A DNA stretch of 34,388 nucleotides from assembly GCA_944386305.1 (NCBI GenBank), contig CALXAN010000027.1, forward strand, positions 1 to 34,388, read 5' to 3'. Position 1 is the stretch's first letter. Every line of letters starts with the position of its first letter. Both the position numbers and the translations under genes were made by a program. This DNA comes from an uncultured Clostridia bacterium. GTDB taxonomy: Bacteria > Bacillota > Clostridia > Oscillospirales > UBA644. Positions 8,456 to 33,168 of the stretch are shown in pieces. The notes under the pieces are model-generated. The model had not been told where the DNA came from. It ran no database searches and saw nothing but the letters and a program-made list of their open reading frames with translations.

Positions 8456-9919
8456 TTACAGCGCGTTTATATTTTCGTCCAGCCATGAGTATCTGAGCTC
8501 AAGGAACCTGAGCAGCCAGTCTACGTTGCTCTGCAGCGTTTTGTACTGCAGGGTAAATTTCGGTTCGCTGCCCAGCTGCTTGTCGACCTGCCAGATGCTG
8601 AAGTTACGCTCCCATGCGCCCTCTGCCAGCAGCGCCTGTCCCTCATCGACTGCTTTAAGCGCCTCGTTGTAGAGGTCTTGCTTTATTTCGTTCCATCTCT
8701 GCTTATACAGCGCTCGGAAATCTTCGTCCGCCATGAGGTAGTTGAACCACGTTATGATGACATAGTAGTCGTCATAGGTGTAGTCCGAAATATCCAAATT
8801 CTTCAGCGTTTGCGCATCCATTATGTCTTCCGTGTCGGGGCCCACGGTGGCAAAATCGTCGTAATTCGGGTTGTCTTCGAAGAAATTGCCCAACGCAAGG
8901 TCGAAATCCCATGCGGGCCCCATTTTCAGCAGCCCGTCTTTATCCTTTACAAAATAGCAGCTGCGGCGGTAGCAGGAGTCGAGGTTATAGGTCAGCTCAT
9001 GCAGTATGGACCAGTCGATAAAGGACATTACGTCTATATATTTCTCGTAGCCGTCTAGCGATCGTATAGCCTTGTCCGTCTGAACAAAATAATTTTTGAT
9101 ATAATCGAACTGCGCCTTTGACATCACGTCCGTGTCGGGACTCTTTATCCTGACCCATTTTGCGCAGCCGGCCGAGAAATAATCCTCGCCCTCAACGTCC
9201 ACATCGGTGTCCGTTCCGCCTATTTCCAATAAATATCCCGTGTTCACGTCCGGATAGCTCTCGTCTATGTCTATCCTGTCCTCGCCTACCTGCAGCTGCT
9301 CGCCCATGGTGTATACCCCGCGGTATCTGCCGTTGAGATATACCTCGACAAGATACTGCGTGGGGTGGTATGCGAGGTTCTGCAGCACTTTGCCCATGCG
9401 GTGTGCTACATAGTTGCGCATCAGCGTTTTGTCGGCTATGTTTGCTATCAGCACCCATTGCCGCGCTTCGGCCAGTCCGAGCACGGAGACTTTGCTGTCA
9501 AACTTAATTTTGTAAGGCTTCTTATCCTTTGTCCATGATGTGTGACCTCTGCCTTTTATCTGAGCTGTCTGCACAGGCAGGGATTCAAAGCCGCTGCCGC
9601 GGGCGTCTATGCTTACCGTGCATGCCACATAGTATTCCTTTGAAACGATATCGACGTGTCCCTGCGTCTCTATATAGACGGCCGGCAGCGCCGAGTTTTC
9701 GTCTCCTTTGATGTCATCGGGCGGCTCAGGCAGCTCGGTATTGGGTTCCTCTGTTTGGACGGATCCGGGCTGTGTCCCGCTGTTCTGCTCCGTGTCGGGG
9801 TCGTCGGTTTGTCCGGGAACGTCGGGCTCGGTGCAGCCTGCTAGAACCGACGTAGTGAGTGCGGCCAGTAAGGTCAGGCATATGAGCCGCAATGTTTTGT
9901 TTATTTGTCGCAAATACAT
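8456..9919 (-). CDS. CotH-kinase family lipoprotein
   Basis: A 487-residue protein. A lipoprotein signal peptide ends in the lipobox LAGC (lipidated Cys29), followed by a Thr/Pro/Glu/Asp-rich linker (about 30-75). A CotH kinase domain then fills the rest: an N-terminal beta region (AQIKGRGHTSW, KKPYKIKFDSK), YLVEVYLNGRYRGVYTMGEQ, and the metal/catalytic segment MGPAWDFDLALGN. CotH proteins are kinases that phosphorylate spore-coat proteins in Bacillus, but many clostridial members are secreted, as this one appears to be; its substrate is unknown. A run of nine G (9921-9929) stands immediately before the ATG where a ribosome binding site is expected. It could be co-transcribed with the upstream GNAT gene, 167 bases away. 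Confidence 0.88.
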   Translation of the reverse strand: MYLRQINKTLRLICLTLLAALTTSVLAGCTEPDVPGQTDDPDTEQNSGTQPGSVQTEEPNTELPEPPDDIKGDENSALPAVYIETQGHVDIVSKEYYVACTVSIDARGSGFESLPVQTAQIKGRGHTSWTKDKKPYKIKFDSKVSVLGLAEARQWVLIANIADKTLMRNYVAHRMGKVLQNLAYHPTQYLVEVYLNGRYRGVYTMGEQLQVGEDRIDIDESYPDVNTGYLLEIGGTDTDVDVEGEDYFSAGCAKWVRIKSPDTDVMSKAQFDYIKNYFVQTDKAIRSLDGYEKYIDVMSFIDWSILHELTYNLDSCYRRSCYFVKDKDGLLKMGPAWDFDLALGNFFEDNPNYDDFATVGPDTEDIMDAQTLKNLDISDYTYDDYYVIITWFNYLMADEDFRALYKQRWNEIKQDLYNEALKAVDEGQALLAEGAWERNFSIWQVDKQLGSEPKFTLQYKTLQSNVDWLLRFLELRYSWLDENINAL

Positions 9920-23714: not shown

Positions 23715-24173
23715 GTGAAAAGAATGTCGGACAATGAGCAGCTGAGGTATATAGTATATTTAATACATTTAGCCGACCGGCTGCATCAGCACTGCATAGA
23801 CCGCAGGCTTCAGGATATAGGCATGCTGAGGAATCAGCACCAGATATTGATGTACCTGCACCATCACCGCGACAATGTGTCTCAGCGCCAGATTGCCGAT
23901 CGCTTCGGCGTAAGCGGCGCGGCGGTTACGTTCGCCTTAAATACGCTGGAGAAATCGGGCTTTATTGTACGCAGTCCCAGCTCTGAAGACGGCAGACGCA
24001 ACGTCATAACGCTGAGCGATAAGGGCGAGCGGATAGTGGAGAAGACGCATCGCGAGTGCGAATACGTAGACAGCTCCGCTTTCTGCGGCATGGATGAGGC
24101 GGATATGCAGATGCTCTCTCGCAGCCTTGAACGCATATGTGATAATCTCAAAAATGCGACGCCTCAGGCTTAG
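23715..24173 (+). CDS. MarR-family transcriptional regulator
   Basis: A winged-helix regulator of about 150 residues. The DNA-binding part is seen at NVSQRQIADRFGVSGAAVTFALNTLEKSGFIVRSPSSEDGRR, with the wing Asp-Gly-Arg-Arg and the following ITLSDKG typical of MarR. Helices at both ends provide dimerisation (HLADRLHQHCIDRRLQDIG at the start). The listed start is GTG at 23715, with AAAAGGG five bases upstream; ATG at 23724 (MSDNEQ) is an equally plausible start. It is followed by a two-gene ABC exporter, so it probably represses the exporter and releases on binding a transported compound. Confidence 0.88.
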   Translation: MKRMSDNEQLRYIVYLIHLADRLHQHCIDRRLQDIGMLRNQHQILMYLHHHRDNVSQRQIADRFGVSGAAVTFALNTLEKSGFIVRSPSSEDGRRNVITLSDKGERIVEKTHRECEYVDSSAFCGMDEADMQMLSRSLERICDNLKNATPQA

Positions 24174-24250
24174 ATAACAGCCGTTCCGCGGCGGTAAGCG
24201 CGCGGAAGGACACGGTAAATATTTGATTTATACTTCGATGGAGACAGCTT

Positions 24251-26026
24251 ATGAAGAAATGGTACAGATACGTCAAACCGTATTTGGCGTATTTTATTAT
24301 CGGGCCGGTATGTATGCTGGTCGAAGTGGCGGGAGAGGTCATAATGCCCAAGATGCTCTCCGTCGTCATAAACGACGCCAACGCGCAGCAGCTTACCGTG
24401 GCCACGAGCCTTACTACCATGGCGCTGATGATTCTGACCGCTGTACTGATGCTGCTGGGCGGGGTCGGCGGCGCGTATTTTGCCAGTAAGGCCTCTGTCA
24501 ATTTTGCAGCCGATCTGCGCGCCGACGTTTATTCTAAGGTACAGAAATTTTCATTTGCAAACATAGATAAATTCAGCACCGGCTCGCTTGTCACAAGGCT
24601 GACCAACGACGTGACGCAGGTGCAGAATTTTGTCAACATGCTGCTGCGCATGGCCCTGCGCGCGCCGGGCATGCTGATAGCCGCGCTGATAATGGCCATA
24701 GCCATGCAGCCTACTTTGTCGGTCGTATTTGCAGTAAGTATCCCGCTGATGCTGATAGCCGTATCGTTTATAATTTCAAAGGGCTTTCCGAGGTTTTCCG
24801 TCATGCAGCGCAAGGTCGACGCGCTCAACACCTCCGTGCAGGAGAACGTGACGAACGTGCGCGTTGTCAAAAGCTTTGTGCGCGAGGAACATGAGGAGCA
24901 AAAGTTCGGCGTCGCCAACTCCGACCTCAAAAACAGCAGTATGGCCGCCATGCGTATAATGATATTTATGCAGCCCGTTATAACGCTGTTTATGAACCTC
25001 ACGGTTCTTGCGGTGATATGGTTCGGCGGCAGCATATCGCTTTCGGGCGGGATGCAGGTCGGAGACCTTTCAGCATTCGTAACCTATGTTACGCAGATAC
25101 TTTCATCGCTTATGATGGTTACCGTGCTGCTTATGATATCCTCCCGCGCAATGGCGTCCGCCAGGCGTATAACCGAGGTCCTTGACGAAGAGCCCGACCT
25201 CAGCGACGAGCACGCGGCGTACCCCGATCTGCGGGTAGGCAGAGGCGAGATAGAGTTCCGCCACGTGTCTTTTAAATATTATAAAAACAGCGAGGGCAAG
25301 GTGCTGGACGATATCAACCTGCACATCCCTGCCGGCGCCACTGTGGGCATAATAGGCTCTACCGGCAGCGGCAAGAGTACGCTGGTATCGCTCATATCGA
25401 GATTGTACGATGCCGACGAGGGTGAGGTGCTCGTAGACGGGGTCAACGTCAAGGACTACTCGCTGTACCATCTGCGCGAGGGCGTAGGCGTGGTGCTGCA
25501 GAAGAATACGCTTTTTTCGGGTACTATAGCGGAAAATCTGAGATGGGGCGACGAGTCCGCGACCGACGAGGAGGTCAGGGCTGCCGCAGTGAGCGCGCAG
25601 GCGGACAAATTCGTATCCTCCTTTACCGACGGGTACGACACCATGCTCGACCAGGGCGGTACGAACGTTTCGGGCGGGCAGAAGCAGAGGCTGTGTATCG
25701 CCAGGGCCCTGCTCAAGCATCCTAAAGTGCTTATATTAGACGATTCCACCTCTGCAGTGGATACCGCTACTGAGGCGCAGATACGCAAGACGTTCGTCAA
25801 CGAGCTGTCCGATTCTACAAAGATAATAATAGCCCAGCGCATCACCTCCGTAAAAGACGCTGACGAAATAGTGGTCATGAACGAGGGGCGCATAACGGGC
25901 GTAGGCACTCACAGCCAGCTTCTGGCAAACAATACCGAATATCAGGAGATATATTATTCTCAGAACGACAGAGAGGAGGGCGGCGCCGATGGCCAGGACT
26001 CTGCAGCAGCTCCGCAGACAATATAA
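24251..26026 (+). CDS. Heterodimeric ABC exporter, subunit with degenerate ATPase site
   Basis: A 591-residue half-transporter with six membrane helices (about 15-310) followed by an ATPase domain. Walker A is GSTGSGKS (369-376) and the signature VSGGQ. The Walker B end is LILDDSTSAVD, with Asp498 in place of the catalytic Glu, and the switch residue is Gln529 (IAQRITS) in place of His. These losses are typical of the non-consensus subunit of TM287/288- or LmrCD-type heterodimers, so the pair hydrolyses ATP at only one site. GGAGA precedes the ATG. The 3' end overlaps the partner gene by 38 bases. Likely multidrug or metabolite export under MarR control; substrate unknown. Confidence 0.9.
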   Translation: MKKWYRYVKPYLAYFIIGPVCMLVEVAGEVIMPKMLSVVINDANAQQLTVATSLTTMALMILTAVLMLLGGVGGAYFASKASVNFAADLRADVYSKVQKFSFANIDKFSTGSLVTRLTNDVTQVQNFVNMLLRMALRAPGMLIAALIMAIAMQPTLSVVFAVSIPLMLIAVSFIISKGFPRFSVMQRKVDALNTSVQENVTNVRVVKSFVREEHEEQKFGVANSDLKNSSMAAMRIMIFMQPVITLFMNLTVLAVIWFGGSISLSGGMQVGDLSAFVTYVTQILSSLMMVTVLLMISSRAMASARRITEVLDEEPDLSDEHAAYPDLRVGRGEIEFRHVSFKYYKNSEGKVLDDINLHIPAGATVGIIGSTGSGKSTLVSLISRLYDADEGEVLVDGVNVKDYSLYHLREGVGVVLQKNTLFSGTIAENLRWGDESATDEEVRAAAVSAQADKFVSSFTDGYDTMLDQGGTNVSGGQKQRLCIARALLKHPKVLILDDSTSAVDTATEAQIRKTFVNELSDSTKIIIAQRITSVKDADEIVVMNEGRITGVGTHSQLLANNTEYQEIYYSQNDREEGGADGQDSAAAPQTI

Positions 26027-27947
26027 CAGTTCCGCCTCTTCTTTCGGCGGGGGAATGATGCGCCGCGGCCCCGGAAAGGGCGGGCGCGGTCCGCGCGGCG
26101 CGGGCGGAAAACCCAAGGATGTAAAACGGACCGTCGGCCGCATCATAAAATATCTGTCGGCATATAAGCTCAGGTTTGCCGTCGTGTTCCTGTGCATGAT
26201 AATAAGCACGGCCACGTCTCTGATCGGCTCGTATATGCTCGCGCCCATAATCGACAAGATAGCCTATGAGGTCAATCCTGCGGCGGTCATAGACATGAGC
26301 CCCCTTGAGCAGATGGCAGACAGGGTCATTTCGCGCTTTACCGATCCGCTCGGCAGCTTTATAGGCAGCCCTATATTGGCTTATATTTTTACGGCATTGC
26401 TGCTGCTGGGCATAGTCTACCTTGTGGGGATAGCCACTACATATCTGCAGGGCCGCGTGATGCTGTCTATATCTCAGGGCGCGGTGGAGAGGATACGCAA
26501 CGACCTGTTCTGCCGCCTGCAGAAGCTGCCCGTGCGCTATTTTGACTCCAATCCCACGGGCGAGATCATGTCGAGGTTTACCAACGATATCGACAATATA
26601 GACGTCATGCTCAACAACTCGCTGACTTCTTTGGTGTCCGGTGCGATAACTCTGATAGGCACGTTCGTGTTTATGATAACTACTAACTGGATTCTGACCC
26701 TGATAACCGTGGCGTTTATTCCGCTCATACTGTTCGGCGGCTCGGCCATAGCCAAGCGCAGCAGCAAATATTATGCGGGACAGCAGGCGGCTCTCGGCGC
26801 GGTCAACGGATATATGGAAGAGACCGTCACCGGACAAAAGGTCATAAAGGTGTTCAACCATGAGCAGGACTGCATAGACGAGTTTTCGCTGCTCAATGAT
26901 GATATGCGCGACAAGCAGTTCCGCGCACAGTTTTGGGGCGGCGTAATGGGCCCCGTGATGGGCAATATATCTCAGATATCGTACGGCGTCACCGTAGGTA
27001 TAGGCGGCGTAATGATGTGTCTGAGCGGGCTGACGCCGGGTGCATTGACTGTGTTTGCCAACTATTCGCGGCAGTTTTCGATGCCGATATCTATGATTTC
27101 TCAGCAGATGAGCACCGTATTTGCTGCGCTTGCGGGAGCCGAACGTGTGTTTAACGTCATGGACCAGGAGCCCGAGCAGCTCGACGCGCCCGACGCTTCC
27201 GCCATGCCCGAGATGCGCGGGGACGTAAGGCTTGAGCATGTTAGCTTTGGCTATAACCCCGATAAAACGGTTCTTAAGGATATAACTCTCTACGCCCGCC
27301 CAGGTCAGAAAGTTGCGTTCGTCGGCTCGACAGGCGCCGGCAAAACTACTATCACCAACCTGCTCAACCGTTTCTATGACATATCCGAGGGCAGCATTAC
27401 GATAGACGGGGTCGATATAAAGCACATAAAGCGCGACGTCCTGCGCAGGAATATCGCCATGGTGCTGCAGGATACGCATTTGTTTACAGGCACGGTAATG
27501 GAGAATATACGCTATGGTCGGCTCGATGCTACGGACGAGGAGGTTGTCGCCGCCGCCAAGACCGCCAGCGCGCACAGCTTCATCATGCGTTTGTCCGACG
27601 GATACCAAACCGTGCTCGAGGGCGACGGCTCCAATCTGTCCCAGGGCCAGCGGCAGCTGCTCAACATCGCCAGGGCCGCCCTGTCCAAGGCTCCCATTCT
27701 CGTGCTCGATGAGGCGACCTCCTCCGTCGACACCCGTACCGAGCGGCATATAGACCGCGGTATGGACCGGCTTATGCACAATAGGACAACGTTTGTCATC
27801 GCGCACAGACTCTCCACCGTGCGCAATGCGGATGTGATAATGGTGCTGGAGCAGGGTCAGATTATAGAGCGCGGCACGCACGAACAGCTGCTGGAGCTTA
27901 AGGGCAGATATTACGAGCTGTACACCGGCGTGCGCGAGCTTGACTGA
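25989..27947 (+). CDS. Heterodimeric ABC exporter, subunit with intact Walker B
   Basis: A 652-residue half-transporter. A Gly/Arg-rich cytoplasmic extension (about 17-47) precedes the six-helix domain, which contains YFDSNPTGEIMSRFTNDIDN. The ATPase domain has Walker A GSTGAGKT, signature LSQGQ (Gln for Gly at the third signature position), Walker B ILVLDEATSSVD with the catalytic Glu, and switch His in IAHRLSTV. The non-canonical signature faces the partner's Asp-type Walker B, so both defects fall in one composite site. GAGGAGG inside the upstream gene drives the start. No U-tract terminator follows closely. Confidence 0.92.
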   Translation: MARTLQQLRRQYNSSASSFGGGMMRRGPGKGGRGPRGAGGKPKDVKRTVGRIIKYLSAYKLRFAVVFLCMIISTATSLIGSYMLAPIIDKIAYEVNPAAVIDMSPLEQMADRVISRFTDPLGSFIGSPILAYIFTALLLLGIVYLVGIATTYLQGRVMLSISQGAVERIRNDLFCRLQKLPVRYFDSNPTGEIMSRFTNDIDNIDVMLNNSLTSLVSGAITLIGTFVFMITTNWILTLITVAFIPLILFGGSAIAKRSSKYYAGQQAALGAVNGYMEETVTGQKVIKVFNHEQDCIDEFSLLNDDMRDKQFRAQFWGGVMGPVMGNISQISYGVTVGIGGVMMCLSGLTPGALTVFANYSRQFSMPISMISQQMSTVFAALAGAERVFNVMDQEPEQLDAPDASAMPEMRGDVRLEHVSFGYNPDKTVLKDITLYARPGQKVAFVGSTGAGKTTITNLLNRFYDISEGSITIDGVDIKHIKRDVLRRNIAMVLQDTHLFTGTVMENIRYGRLDATDEEVVAAAKTASAHSFIMRLSDGYQTVLEGDGSNLSQGQRQLLNIARAALSKAPILVLDEATSSVDTRTERHIDRGMDRLMHNRTTFVIAHRLSTVRNADVIMVLEQGQIIERGTHEQLLELKGRYYELYTGVRELD

Positions 27948-27969: not shown

Positions 27970-28104
27970 TTATGTCCGCAGGTACCGTGTGGTCGCCGAG
28001 TACCGTGTGATTTGTCGCATATGTTCACAGGTACCGTGTGTTCGGCGCTTATGTCCGCAGGTATCGTGTGTTCCGCAGCATATATTCTCAGATAGTGTTT
28101 TTAT
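27970..28104. repeat. Degenerate tandem repeat, about 30-base period
   Basis: Four to five imperfect copies of a unit like TATGTCCGCAGGTACCGTG(TG) at about 27970, 28000 (short), 28020, 28050 and 28081. The core GGTACCGTGTG recurs exactly at three sites (the third copy, near 28000, lacks the first G), GGTATCGTGTG once and GATAGTGT once. No ORF spans it. Confidence 0.7.
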
Positions 28105-28113
28105 TCTTAGAGA

Positions 28114-28154
28114 GCTAAGCGGCTGCGTCCCCTTGGGGACGCAGCCGCTTAAGC
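28114..28154. repeat. Strong inverted repeat between convergent genes
   Basis: AAGCGGCTGCGTCCCC (28117-28132) and its exact complement (28135-28150) with a two-base loop; the pairing extends with GCT/AGC on both ends. No U-run follows on either strand. It sits between the ABC operon and the minus-strand ECF gene and may end both transcripts. Confidence 0.7.
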
Positions 28155-28286
28155 TATGAGCCGCATCTTATGCCGAGATAAAATCAAAGCGTGTTTCTGT
28201 CAGCGCGCGTATGCGCTGGTGTCGGGTTTCCCGAGAGATACGGAGAGGCTCTCTGCAGTTTCGAATCGCTGAAAAGTCGTTCTGCG

Positions 28287-28838
28287 CTATTTTATGGGTA
28301 TGAGCTTCGACCTTTCCAGCGCGAACAATACAGCCGGTACAATTATGAGCTGCAAAATTATTCCCGGCACGGCGTTTACAAACGCTTGCGTGACGAATAT
28401 GCCCAGCGAAAAGGGGAGGTTCTGCATAAATCTGCTCATTATCAGTCTGACCACGGCCCATATCAGCCTGCCCCCGATCATTGCGCCTATCAGTGAGGCG
28501 TAAATATGGGGTATTCTGTGCTTATTGGGTATGACTTTGAGCAGTACTGCTATCAGCACCCCGTATGCCGCCAGCTCGAACATCATGGGTATGCCTGTAT
28601 TGATTATAGCGCCCGGCATGAATAATGCGAATCTCAGTATCGGCGTCAGCGCCCCTACCGCCAGTCCGTATTTCCAGCCGCATATGGCCCCGCAGAGCAG
28701 CACGGGCAAGTGCATGGGGCACAGCATGTTGCCTATCTGCGGCACGTTCATCGTCAAAGACGGCAGGAGTATACCTATTGCCAGCAGCATTGCGGCTGCG
28801 GTTAGTTCTTTTACGGATTTTTTCATTTTGTCTGTCAT
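28287..28838 (-). CDS. ECF transporter S component (PF12822/COG4684 type)
   Basis: A 183-residue, very hydrophobic protein with about six membrane helices. The pattern ELTAAAMLLAIGILLPSL, PQIGNMLCPMHLPVLLCG and CGWKYGLAVGALTPILR matches the uncharacterised S-component family COG4684, substrate-binding subunits that use shared EcfA/A'/T modules for vitamin or precursor uptake. Substrate unknown; no EcfA or EcfT gene is nearby, so it should be a group II component. I start at the ATG at 28838, directly after GGGAGGA; the longer ORF start at 29006 lies inside the structured leader. The transcript begins about 180 bases upstream, behind a consensus promoter, with a folded RNA and a terminator between, which strongly suggests ligand-controlled expression. 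Confidence 0.85.
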   Translation of the reverse strand: MTDKMKKSVKELTAAAMLLAIGILLPSLTMNVPQIGNMLCPMHLPVLLCGAICGWKYGLAVGALTPILRFALFMPGAIINTGIPMMFELAAYGVLIAVLLKVIPNKHRIPHIYASLIGAMIGGRLIWAVVRLIMSRFMQNLPFSLGIFVTQAFVNAVPGIILQLIIVPAVLFALERSKLIPIK

Positions 28839-28851
28839 GTTTGTCCTCCCA

Positions 28852-28897
28852 TAAAAAAAGACGCCGCGCGCCTTTCTTGAAAAGGCAAACGGCATCT
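28852..28897 (-). terminator. Intrinsic terminator inside the ECF leader
   Basis: On the minus strand AGATGCCG...GCCTTT pairs with AAAGGC...CGGCGTCT (28897-28859), and U7 follows (28859-28853). It ends only a few bases before the ribosome binding site, so it is an attenuator rather than an upstream gene's end. Confidence 0.85.
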
Positions 28898-28925
28898 TTT
28901 GATGTCCTGTACGGTTGCTGTGTAT

Positions 28926-29010
28926 GAGTTGAGGCATTTTTTCAAGGGGAGTCTTGGACTCCCGCTTTGCCGCTTGTGCGGCCTTTTGGTTATTACATGT
29001 CCCCAATCTC
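28926..29010 (-). ncRNA. Putative orphan riboswitch aptamer (three-way junction)
   Basis: On the minus strand, P1 is GAGATTGGGGACAT (29010-28997) pairing with ATGCCTCAACTC (28937-28926): 12 pairs including one G-U, with two single bulged A. Inside are P2, GCCGC/GCGGC with a four-base loop (28982-28969), and P3, GGGAGTC/GACTCCC with a three-base loop (28963-28947). The joining segments are purine- and A-rich. A terminator follows, then the ECF gene. I could not match it to TPP, FMN, cobalamin, THF, preQ1, purine, glycine, SAM or ZTP consensus cores. Confidence 0.55.
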
Positions 29011-29024
29011 TGATATGCGGAATT

Positions 29025-29053
29025 ATTATATCAAAAAAAGCGATTTCTGTCAA
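29025..29053 (-). promoter_or_regulatory. Consensus sigma-A promoter of the ECF gene
   Basis: On the minus strand: -35 TTGACA (29053-29048), a 17-base spacer, and -10 TATAAT (29030-29025). A start near 29018 puts the aptamer at the very 5' end of the RNA. Confidence 0.9.
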
Positions 29054-30221: not shown

Positions 30222-30983
30222 ATGGCAGTATCACACAGAGGCGCCATTTCTTTCGGCATGGTGCATATCCCGGTAGGTCTGTACACCGCTACGCAGGATA
30301 ACGATATCCATTTTAATCAGCTGTGCAGAGAGGACGGCTCAAGAGTCAGGTATAAAAAGGTATGCTCAAACTGCGGAAAAGAAGTGGGTGCGAAAGATAT
30401 TGTAAAAGGCTTCGAATATGAGCCGGGGAAGTATGTCACCATGACGGACGACGACTTTGAAAAAGCCAAATCCGAAAAGGATAAAACCATACACATCATG
30501 CTTTTTACCGATTTGGCCGCTATCCGCCCGATATACTTTGACCAAACCTATCATGCCGTACCCGAACAGGGCGGCGATAAAGCTTTTGAACTGCTGCGCC
30601 GCGCAATGAAAGACGAGAACAAAATCGGCGTGGCAAAAACCGTAATGGGCACCAAAGAAAAGCTGCTGGCACTGATCCCGACCGATAACGGCATTCTGAT
30701 AGAAACTCTTTTCTTTGCAGACGAAGTCAAAGAAGCGCCGAAGGAAGCGGCGCATACCGAGGTGAGCGCTGAAGAGCTGCAAATGGCAAAAACGCTGATC
30801 GGCGCCATGGTAAAAGAATTTGAACCCGAACGGTACAAGGACGAGTACCGCGAGAAGCTGTGGCAGATCATTAACGGTAAAATACAGGGCAAAGAAGTAA
30901 CAGCGCCGCAAGAGTCCGTCGTCAATGTCATCGATTTGATGGAAGCGCTCAAGCAGAGCCTATCGCAGGCAGGTGTCAAGTGA
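30222..30983 (+). CDS. ku: Non-homologous end-joining protein Ku
   Basis: A 253-residue bacterial Ku. Signatures: HRGAISFGMVHIPVGLYTAT at the start, VRYKKVCSNCGKEV with its CxxC knuckle, KGFEYEPGKYVTMTDDDFEK, PIYFDQTYHAVPEQGGDKAF and MAKTLIGAMVKEFEPERYKDEYREKL. As a homodimer it threads onto broken DNA ends and recruits the ligase. The length is at the short end for the family; the usual Lys-rich C-terminal extension is missing. GAGGTG precedes the ATG. The stop overlaps the ligase start (GTGA). Codon use is richer in GAA and AAA than in the upstream genes. Confidence 0.95.
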   Translation: MAVSHRGAISFGMVHIPVGLYTATQDNDIHFNQLCREDGSRVRYKKVCSNCGKEVGAKDIVKGFEYEPGKYVTMTDDDFEKAKSEKDKTIHIMLFTDLAAIRPIYFDQTYHAVPEQGGDKAFELLRRAMKDENKIGVAKTVMGTKEKLLALIPTDNGILIETLFFADEVKEAPKEAAHTEVSAEELQMAKTLIGAMVKEFEPERYKDEYREKLWQIINGKIQGKEVTAPQESVVNVIDLMEALKQSLSQAGVK

Positions 30984-31918
30984 GCGACCTGTTTGAACAA
31001 AAAAACATAAAACCGATGCTCATCGGCGCCGAAGGGGAGGCGTTTGACTCTCCCGATTATCTGTATGAGTTAAAGTTAGACGGTGAGCGCTGCATTGCTT
31101 ACCTTGACCCGGCTGAGGGCACGGAACTGCGCAGCAAGCGGAATATCAGAATGCTGACCAAGGTGCCGGAACTGAAAGACATTCATAAACAGGTCAATTG
31201 CCGCTGCATCCTTGACGGAGAGCTTGCGGTTATAAAAGACGGCAGGCCGGATTTCTACGAGATACAGCGGCGGTCTTTGATGAGCAGTCCTTTAAAAATC
31301 GAGCTTGCCGCCCGGCAGTATCCCGCTTGCTTTACCGCTTTTGATATTCTGTATTATGAGCGCAGAGCCGTCTGCGGGCTTCCCCTGACTCAGAGGAAGG
31401 AACTGCTCCTAAAGGCCGTTAACGAACAAACGGCGCGCTTGGCGGTATCAAGGATAGTTGAAAACAGCGGTATCGCTTTTTATCAGCTTGTCAAGGCTCA
31501 GAATTTAGAAGGAATTGTGGCCAAGCGCAAAGACAGCCGGTATTATTTCGATAAACGGACAAGGGACTGGATAAAGTGCAAGAATCTCAAGGACGACGAC
31601 TATGTCGTCTGCGGGTTTATTCCGAAAGATAACGGCATGACGAGCGTCGTACTCGGACAGTTTGCCGACGGGAAGCTGAAATACAAAGGTCATGTGACGC
31701 TCGGAGTAGGAGGCGAAAGCTTCCGCAGAATCAGGCGGCTGCCTCGGATATCCGTCCCATTGTTTGAACCGCCCGCCGGGAATGAAGACGCCGTGTGGGT
31801 CGAGCCTGTTGTCTGCTGTACTGTAAAGTATATGGAAAAAACAGAGTCCGGCCTTCGTCAGCCCGTGTTCAAAGGTCTGCGTGAGGACAAAGCGCCTGAG
31901 GATTGCGTGGAAAGCTGA
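30980..31918 (+). CDS. ligD: ATP-dependent DNA ligase (LigD ligase domain only)
   Basis: A 312-residue ligase. Motif I is ELKLDGERC, with adenylated Lys32. Further motifs are ILDGELAVI (III), TAFDILYYE (IIIa), LEGIVAKRKDS (IV) and DWIKCKNLK (V). The C-terminal OB-fold ends VEPVVCCTVKYMEKTESGLRQPVFKGLR, as in LigD. The polymerase and phosphoesterase domains of the large LigD are absent, so this is the minimal Ku-plus-ligase arrangement. The GTG start overlaps the Ku stop, so the two are coupled. It ends five bases from the convergent Pol IV reading frame. Confidence 0.93.
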   Translation: MSDLFEQKNIKPMLIGAEGEAFDSPDYLYELKLDGERCIAYLDPAEGTELRSKRNIRMLTKVPELKDIHKQVNCRCILDGELAVIKDGRPDFYEIQRRSLMSSPLKIELAARQYPACFTAFDILYYERRAVCGLPLTQRKELLLKAVNEQTARLAVSRIVENSGIAFYQLVKAQNLEGIVAKRKDSRYYFDKRTRDWIKCKNLKDDDYVVCGFIPKDNGMTSVVLGQFADGKLKYKGHVTLGVGGESFRRIRRLPRISVPLFEPPAGNEDAVWVEPVVCCTVKYMEKTESGLRQPVFKGLREDKAPEDCVES

Positions 31919-32139: not shown

Positions 32140-33168
32140 TCAGGCGCGCACGCTGAGCGAGCGAACCGGTTTGCCGGACGTGTGATGGAGCTTATACATC
32201 TCAAATGCTTTTTGGAACAGCGCCTTTGCCGTACGGTTCGGATAAGAGAGTTTGCCCTGCCGTTCATAGCTGTGCAGCTCATTGTCGCGCACGCCGATCT
32301 GTACGGTATTGCAGACAAAGCCGTACTCCCGCATGCGTGCGGACACGCTTTGGCACAGTATCATCAGAGTGATGCGTATATCTTCATCGGTTACCAAATC
32401 CCGGGGTGCGGTCGTGCTGTTGCCTATGGATTTGATTAAGGATTTTGCACCTATATTGGATACGGGCGAAGTATCCAGTCCGTTGGCGAACATCCACAGC
32501 TTTATTCCGTTTTGGCCTAATATGTGGTGTAAAAGGTCTTTGTCCGACTGCGCAAGGTGCCCTATTGTTTTGATGCCGTATCGCTGCAGCTTGCTGTGTG
32601 TGGCGCGGCCTACATAAAGAAGATCGCTGACAGGCAGCGGCCAAACAATCTCGCGGAACCGCTCGCTTGTAATGACTGTCGTTGCGTCCGGCTTTTTCAT
32701 ATCGCTGCCGAGCTTTGCAAATATCTTGTTGTAGCTGACGCCCACGGACGCCGTCACGCCCAATTCAAATTTAATCCGTTCCCGCAGCTTATCCGCAATT
32801 GCCTTGCCGTCTCCGAACAGGCGGGTGCTTCCGGTTACATCCAGCCAGCATTCGTCCAAGCCGTAAGGCTCTACTTGGTCGGTGTATTCGCTGTAAATTT
32901 CTCGTGCAATCTGCGAATATTTCATGTACAGGTCATAGTGCGGCGGTACGAAGACTATATTTGGGCATTTCCGCCTCGCCGCCCACAGCGGGTCTCCGGT
33001 TTGTACTCCGAGGGCTTTGGCGGCGTAATTCTTCGCAAGCACGATACCGTGCCGCGCTTCCGGGTCACCCGCCACTGCCACGGGTTTGCCGCGCAGCGAA
33101 GGGTTGTACAGGCATTCCACCGAGGCGTAGAAATTATTCAGATCCGAATGCAGAATAATCCTTTGCAT
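32140..33168 (-). CDS. dinB: DNA polymerase IV (Y family), truncated by in-frame TGA
   Basis: A 342-residue catalytic and little-finger part of a translesion polymerase. Catalytic acids are in ILHSDLNNFYASVE (Asp9) and EPYGLDECWLDVTG (adjacent Asp-Glu). Other signs are GIVLAKNYAAKALGV, TASVGVSYNKIFAKLGSDMKKP and the little-finger QIGVRDNELHSYERQGKL. The frame stops at TGA right after RSLSVRA, where relatives continue RAC-D/N-L, so the stop replaces a Cys codon. The lost 72 codons hold the clamp-binding motif. The truncated product may still polymerise but should be poorly recruited. GGAGAG precedes the ATG and an extended -10 (TGATATAAT, around 33206-33201) lies upstream. Its neighbours Ku and ligase make a repair cluster. 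Confidence 0.88.
   Translation of the reverse strand: MQRIILHSDLNNFYASVECLYNPSLRGKPVAVAGDPEARHGIVLAKNYAAKALGVQTGDPLWAARRKCPNIVFVPPHYDLYMKYSQIAREIYSEYTDQVEPYGLDECWLDVTGSTRLFGDGKAIADKLRERIKFELGVTASVGVSYNKIFAKLGSDMKKPDATTVITSERFREIVWPLPVSDLLYVGRATHSKLQRYGIKTIGHLAQSDKDLLHHILGQNGIKLWMFANGLDTSPVSNIGAKSLIKSIGNSTTAPRDLVTDEDIRITLMILCQSVSARMREYGFVCNTVQIGVRDNELHSYERQGKLSYPNRTAKALFQKAFEMYKLHHTSGKPVRSLSVRA

Follow-up and report, generated by a model that had tools for sequence, protein, structure and literature searches.

A conserved family of probable dual-hairpin attenuators before nickel-pincer nucleotide and nickel genes in Clostridia, with a divergent member upstream of an ECF transporter S component

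The leader of an ECF transporter S component gene in the window, 34,388 nucleotides of a contig from an uncultured Clostridia bacterium, is by sequence comparison a divergent member of a conserved, previously undescribed family of dual-hairpin attenuators. Members are recognized by two hairpins with a common loop motif and an AAG-AAG distance of 17 to 21 nucleotides. They occur in many gut Clostridia, almost always together with the uncharacterized protein DUF3842. The window leader has two such pairs, H1-H2 and H3-H4, with a distance of exactly 20 in each; H3 excludes the terminator through a shared GAUGCC, and the genome encodes a DUF3842 protein. Judged from the genes that follow these leaders, the regulon is that of the nickel-pincer nucleotide (NPN) and nickel genes of Clostridia. 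Taken together, we think it fairly probable that this is an NPN/nickel attenuator family in which termination would be the default, the trans-acting protein would most likely be DUF3842, and the ECF S component would serve as an importer.

Features of the window leader and the gene that it precedes
Feature	Coordinates	Strand	Description and basis
-35 element, TTGACA	29048..29053	-	Sequence; homologous leaders have a promoter at the matching place
-10 element, TATAAT	29025..29030	-	Sequence; 17-nucleotide spacer to the -35 element
P1 of the first-pass annotation (29010-28997 with 28937-28926)	28926..29010	-	Predicted; enclosing helix not conserved in relatives
H1, GCCGC-ACAA-GCGGC	28969..28982	-	First hairpin of the upstream pair; fold, motif-pair search, register of model R2 with filters off
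H2, GGGAGUC-CAA-GACUCCC	28947..28963	-	Second hairpin of the upstream pair, AAG 20 nucleotides past that of H1; fold, pair search, R2 register
H3, GG(A)CAUC-AAAA-GAUGCC	28891..28907	-	Antiterminator hairpin, excludes the terminator; equivalent H3 in relatives
H4, CCUUUU-CAA-GAAAGG	28869..28887	-	Upper terminator hairpin with the same loop motif, AAG 20 nucleotides past that of H3
Intrinsic terminator, stem GAUGCCG...CGGCGUC, then U7	28853..28896	-	Sequence, fold
Ribosome binding site, GGGAGG	28845..28850	-	Sequence
ECF transporter S component (PF12822), ATG at 28838	28287..28838	-	Domain search; candidate importer of NPN or a precursor

A first-pass annotation, made from the sequence alone, had described a consensus minus-strand promoter, a folded leader, a terminator ending at the ribosome binding site and an ECF S component gene. 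Each of these was borne out: the leader folds with a z score of -4.96 (none of 200 shuffles as strong), U7 ends at GGGAGG directly before the start codon, and the gene product matches PF12822 (ECF_trnsprt, E 5.4e-14). The leader is also an orphan, as had been claimed. Rfam gave no match for the window at the gathering threshold, and the leader alone gave no plausible match on the correct strand at E <= 10, only a chance DnaX hit; a known Rfam class was rejected, the weak matches being mostly on the wrong strand or meaningless. The proposed three-way junction stood as a prediction but not as a conserved core: the minimum-energy fold does contain a 12-pair P1 with two bulged A residues and two inner hairpins, but the enclosing helix is not conserved in related leaders (mean z -0.13 over 34 pairs), with values below -2 for the window leader and L205 only. 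Two things had been missed. The hairpins share a loop motif, and an antiterminator, reported as not found, exists in the form of H3: its 3' arm, GAUGCC, doubles as the terminator's 5' arm, making the two structures mutually exclusive, and H4 is compatible with H3, so that both can stand together. The predicted energy of the terminator is -26.7 kcal/mol, against -13.6 for H3 plus H4; given this difference of about 13 kcal/mol, transcription is expected to terminate by default.

The window copy is divergent, with loops ACAA, CAA and AAAA, and other GC-rich hairpins occur nearby. A CCAAGG tip is found, too, on the terminator that follows the gene (about 28121-28155), so a CAA triloop by itself is no specific mark in this genome. 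These observations would fit an unregulated leader with a plain promoter and terminator and hairpins arising by chance, an explanation that we nevertheless regard as extremely improbable. At least one motif pair was found in 16 of 20,000 shuffles of the window leader and at least two in none, and a search of both strands of the 34-kb window returned no pair besides the two in the leader. The same layout recurs in dozens of species, which refutes chance at the family level. R2, a covariance model built without the window copy, aligned that copy in the expected register with filters off, at a modest score (8.5 bits, E 0.0054 for 261 nucleotides); with filters on there was no match.

Homologous ECF S leaders have a common design of promoter, tandem H1-H2, H3, and a terminator tipped by H4. 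Loops are of the type C-[AN(G)AA]-G and measure 3 to 5 nucleotides (AGAA, UGAA, ANGAA, ACAA and CAA were seen), while the stem sequences vary freely. Spacing is more constrained: in nearly all leaders the AAG-AAG distance is 19 to 21 nucleotides for H1-H2 and 17 to 19 for H3-H4. As in the window, H3 and the terminator share an arm (3' in H3, 5' in the terminator), and the terminator tip repeats the loop motif. Among 70 unselected homologous leaders, the commonest tight loops were C.CAA.G, C.AGAA.G, C.ACAA.G and C.UGAA.G. In 22 leaders chosen for carrying the motif, 46 motif hairpins were counted, whereas shuffles led to an expectation of 0.54 and never gave more than 3. Two alignments with no sequence in common both showed strong stem covariation, with 94.4% and 97.2% of cells paired and scores of 1.00 and 0.79 versus 0.25 in shuffles, and the signal was lost when the alignment was slid; these rows were picked for having hairpins and the counts illustrate rather than prove, so the weight rests on the unselected counts (the 70 leaders, 80 DUF3842 loci and the R2 scan described below).

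When the leader was compared with 147 relatives at the nucleotide level, only short fragments matched, so conservation of the RNA does not extend to its sequence. At the gathering threshold, Rfam had no match in 20 homologous ECF S loci, nor at these leaders in 20 DUF3842 loci. MAFFT misaligned triloop members, and models were therefore built from loop-length-matched subsets. The first covariance model, R1, was set aside: among its matches at weak E-values were coding sequences beside true leaders, and it did not put the window copy in register. Degenerate members escape the strict pair test. Four loci upstream of ECF S genes (L010, L011, L013 and L027) show a variant layout, in which a pair of CCAAG hairpins lies directly before the start codon with no evident terminator; this arrangement suggests translational rather than transcriptional control.

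The genes downstream give the family its coherence. A clear copy found with R1 is in genome G105, flanked by a DUF3842 gene (PF12953) on one side and a larB-larC-larE operon on the other. Other DUF3842-linked leaders precede larE (G052, G112, G114 and G072), CbiM-type nickel/cobalt ECF genes (G085 and G062) and a FecCD-type importer (G119). Named DUF3842 loci were examined in Clostridia and a small number of other taxa. Of these 80, 31 have a dual-hairpin pair within 330 nucleotides downstream of the DUF3842 gene (0.05 expected), and none has one upstream or antisense. Among the genes that follow these linked leaders are larB/C/E, CbiMQO, FecCD importers, peptide/nickel ABC importer-like genes and the ECF S family, the last in L173, L183 and L244, where CbiO-like ATPase genes accompany it and L173 has a CbiQ-like gene as well; a small MACFLVP protein and a membrane protein found with lar genes are also downstream. 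A scan of 391 genomes of the class with R2 gave a similar picture. Nine of ten matches at E <= 2.5e-4 precede NPN-linked (for example larE/larC), FecCD or ECF S genes, and the remaining one is in coding sequence; a further leader in G486 at E 0.002 brings the total to ten leaders among roughly eleven top matches, the remaining five matches between E 7e-4 and 0.003 not being leaders. DUF3842 is present in all ten genomes with leaders found in this way. The substrates toward which the first-pass annotation had pointed for a ligand (folate, pantothenate, thiamin, queuosine and biotin) are thus displaced by an NPN/nickel theme.

Two further components recur at these loci. The protein beginning MACFLVPAAEA (L100:3075-3824 in G105, and many lar operons) recurs with larBCE and has no Pfam or NCBIfam match; alongside it and larBCE is a second small membrane protein with no Pfam match. 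Both are candidates for an unrecognized nickel/NPN membrane component. FecCD-type ABC importers lie under family leaders in L140 (downstream of DUF3842, G119), L259, L208 and L180, and are a possible second uptake route for NPN, a nickel-chelate or a corrinoid.

The occurrence of the dual hairpin follows that of DUF3842 even where the two are unlinked. A pair is present at 21 of 37 ECF S loci in genomes with DUF3842, versus none of 33 in genomes without it (p 3e-8); by the strict test, the other 16 of the 37 have no pair. When only loci with DUF3842 on another contig are counted, the comparison is 12 of 28 versus 0 of 33 (p 2e-5). Within the family to which the window's genome belongs, this genome (G000) is alone in having DUF3842 and alone in having an ECF S leader with the pair; its DUF3842 gene is on another contig (G000:C109:11763-12146), with no leader pair downstream. 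The association does not extend significantly to LarC operons, where a leader pair was seen in 4 of 20 genomes with DUF3842 and 1 of 16 without (p 0.35). All p values given here and below are without correction for kinship, and come from phylogenetically dependent samples that include many metagenome assemblies.

This tracking favors an element read by a protein over direct binding of a metabolite. A true riboswitch, in which the tandem hairpins would themselves bind NPN, a precursor or nickel and DUF3842 would be merely a pathway enzyme or chaperone, would explain why the regulon is coherent around a single cofactor, why DUF3842 resembles a nucleotide-binding enzyme with invariant residues, and how G099 can have a leader with no detected DUF3842. 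We consider it unlikely, since what is conserved is a set of small loops, nearly identical and repeated at a fixed distance, and not a single aptamer core, and since none of the 33 ECF S loci in DUF3842-lacking genomes has a pair, although several of those genomes do have LarA. Of the transcription-terminating riboswitch first proposed for the window leader, therefore, the terminating regulatory leader stands, but direct metabolite binding is not the best reading. In G099, a full leader precedes larE (L281, reverse complement of 8840-9160) and PF12953 was not detected; either DUF3842 has been lost or has diverged there, or another factor acts in its place.

As the protein that reads the hairpins, DUF3842 is the best candidate and most likely works the switch. 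Its predicted structure is a single Rossmann-like nucleotide-binding domain (pLDDT 94), a fold in keeping with the sensing of a pyridinium nucleotide, and the family has invariant residues. A search of the PDB with this model returned generic nucleotide-binding folds only, with no recognized RNA-binding module. In one genome (L110:1498-2115) DUF3842 is fused to CooT (PF10133), a nickel-associated accessory protein of CO dehydrogenase. CooT was tagged in older Pfam as a predicted RNA-binding family. Both the fusion and the want of a recognizable RNA-binding domain in DUF3842 could be taken to mean that another RNA-binding protein reads the antiterminator while DUF3842 supplies the signal. This is less probable again than a riboswitch, given that DUF3842 is the sole gene seen beside leaders of several unrelated downstream genes, and that casual, non-systematic inspection turned up no further regulator gene next to leaders. 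In L104, a CooT gene directly follows DUF3842. In the literature searched there is no mention of DUF3842.

In design, the family most resembles the targets of ANTAR proteins (EutV/eut, NasR and AmiR), in which two hairpins with conserved loops and a restricted linker exclude a terminator, so that protein binding holds the transcript in read-through; the ANTAR loop is a hexanucleotide with A at position 1 and G at position 4 (PMC3369931, PMC8934654). Like these RNAs, the present family has two tandem hairpins, one of which overlaps the terminator, and the ANTAR 13-mer AGCAANGRRGCUY resembles the family's GC-ANGAA-GC. Both likenesses could point to an ANTAR-domain response regulator as the reader of the hairpins. 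However, the loops have 3 to 5 nucleotides, C-[AN(G)AA]-G, and fail the A1/G4 hexaloop rule; leaders usually have two pairs; and the leaders go with DUF3842 and a nickel-cofactor regulon. About half of the leader genomes have no PF03861 protein: it is missing from 10 of 21, namely G000 (85% complete) and 9 others, and there is no association between leader and ANTAR protein (p 0.81). ANTAR as the trans factor was accordingly rejected, and we give it very little credence. We therefore describe the window leader as ANTAR-like in its logic but outside the ANTAR class. Similar to the riboswitches of other ECF S genes (THF, TPP and FMN), it is a leader with a choice between terminator and antiterminator and a vitamin-type transporter downstream. 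Unlike them, the family lacks an Rfam match at gathering or a single aptamer core, has up to four repeats of its motif, and also precedes larE, larC and nickel transporters. RAT elements are single, longer, imperfect hairpins read by a PTS-linked regulator. Their hairpin, in the BglG/SacY-LicT systems, is stabilized by protein and overlaps the terminator (PMC3369931), an overlap that the present family shares in a comparison made by description only.

What the window's ECF S component carries is probably NPN or a late precursor destined for LarA. Folate was rejected as substrate (TIGR04518, 25 bits against a cut-off of 60). The genome of the window encodes a LarA equivalog (625 bits, cut-off 460) adjoining a gene that by eye is malate/lactate dehydrogenase-like. 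At 85% completeness, which leaves gene absences uncertain, this genome gave no detectable LarC and no LarE or LarB above cut-off; LarC was found in no genome of the sample of its family. More widely, among genomes with strong LarA, an ECF S homologue is present in 15 of 16 that lack LarC versus 3 of 14 that have it; leaving out the weakest ECF S matches (14 of 16 versus 3 of 14), Fisher's test within the LarA genomes gives p 6e-4. None of the 16 has LarE or LarB above cut-off. In G138 and G095 the homologous ECF S gene is in an operon with LarA and overlaps it. Where genomes have either the biosynthesis or the transporter, this pattern usually marks a salvage importer, and nicotinate alone is useless to a cell without LarBCE, which makes NPN or a late precursor the natural substrate. 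Biosynthesis of NPN by LarB, LarC and LarE and its use by LarA are described in PMC7583248 and PMC11770544; a keyword search of these and of PMC11796402 gave no passage on NPN import or regulation.

Under the model that we favor, RNA polymerase would stop at the terminator by default. A trans-acting protein, most likely DUF3842 as a sensor of NPN or nickel status, would load onto H1-H2 and then clamp H3 and H4. Since H3 uses as its 3' arm the segment that the terminator needs as its 5' arm, the clamped hairpins would prevent termination, and read-through would allow the ECF S component to be made and to bring NPN or a late precursor to LarA in a host with no detectable LarB, LarC or LarE. The fullest form of this proposal, which we offer tentatively from comparative evidence and think somewhat less likely to be right than wrong, is that DUF3842 represents a new type of sequence-specific RNA antiterminator, senses NPN or nickel, and governs NPN biosynthesis, nickel uptake and an ECF importer of NPN or a precursor not known before, one that would enable LarA to work without cofactor synthesis. 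If true, this would provide the nickel-pincer cofactor of lactate racemase with a regulator, a regulon and a route of uptake, and give DUF3842, a domain common in gut Clostridia, a function to test. It would also predict cross-feeding of NPN from gut bacteria that make it to bacteria that only use it, and suggest that dual-hairpin antitermination arose with a loop code and a protein different from those of ANTAR.

Several features lie around the leader in the window. Past the ECF S gene, the terminator with the CCAAGG tip is a perfect inverted repeat (AAGCGGCTGCGTCCCC/GGGGACGCAGCCGCTT) at 28121-28155, followed by imperfect repeats of ACACGGTACCTGxGxACAT at 28000-28080. A MarR regulator and, after it, two ABC exporter half-transporters are encoded on the plus strand at 23715-27947. 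Adjacent genes for Ku and an ATP-dependent DNA ligase, the components of non-homologous end joining, occupy 30222-31918 on the plus strand, and adjoining them on the minus strand is a DinB-type polymerase gene (32140-33168).
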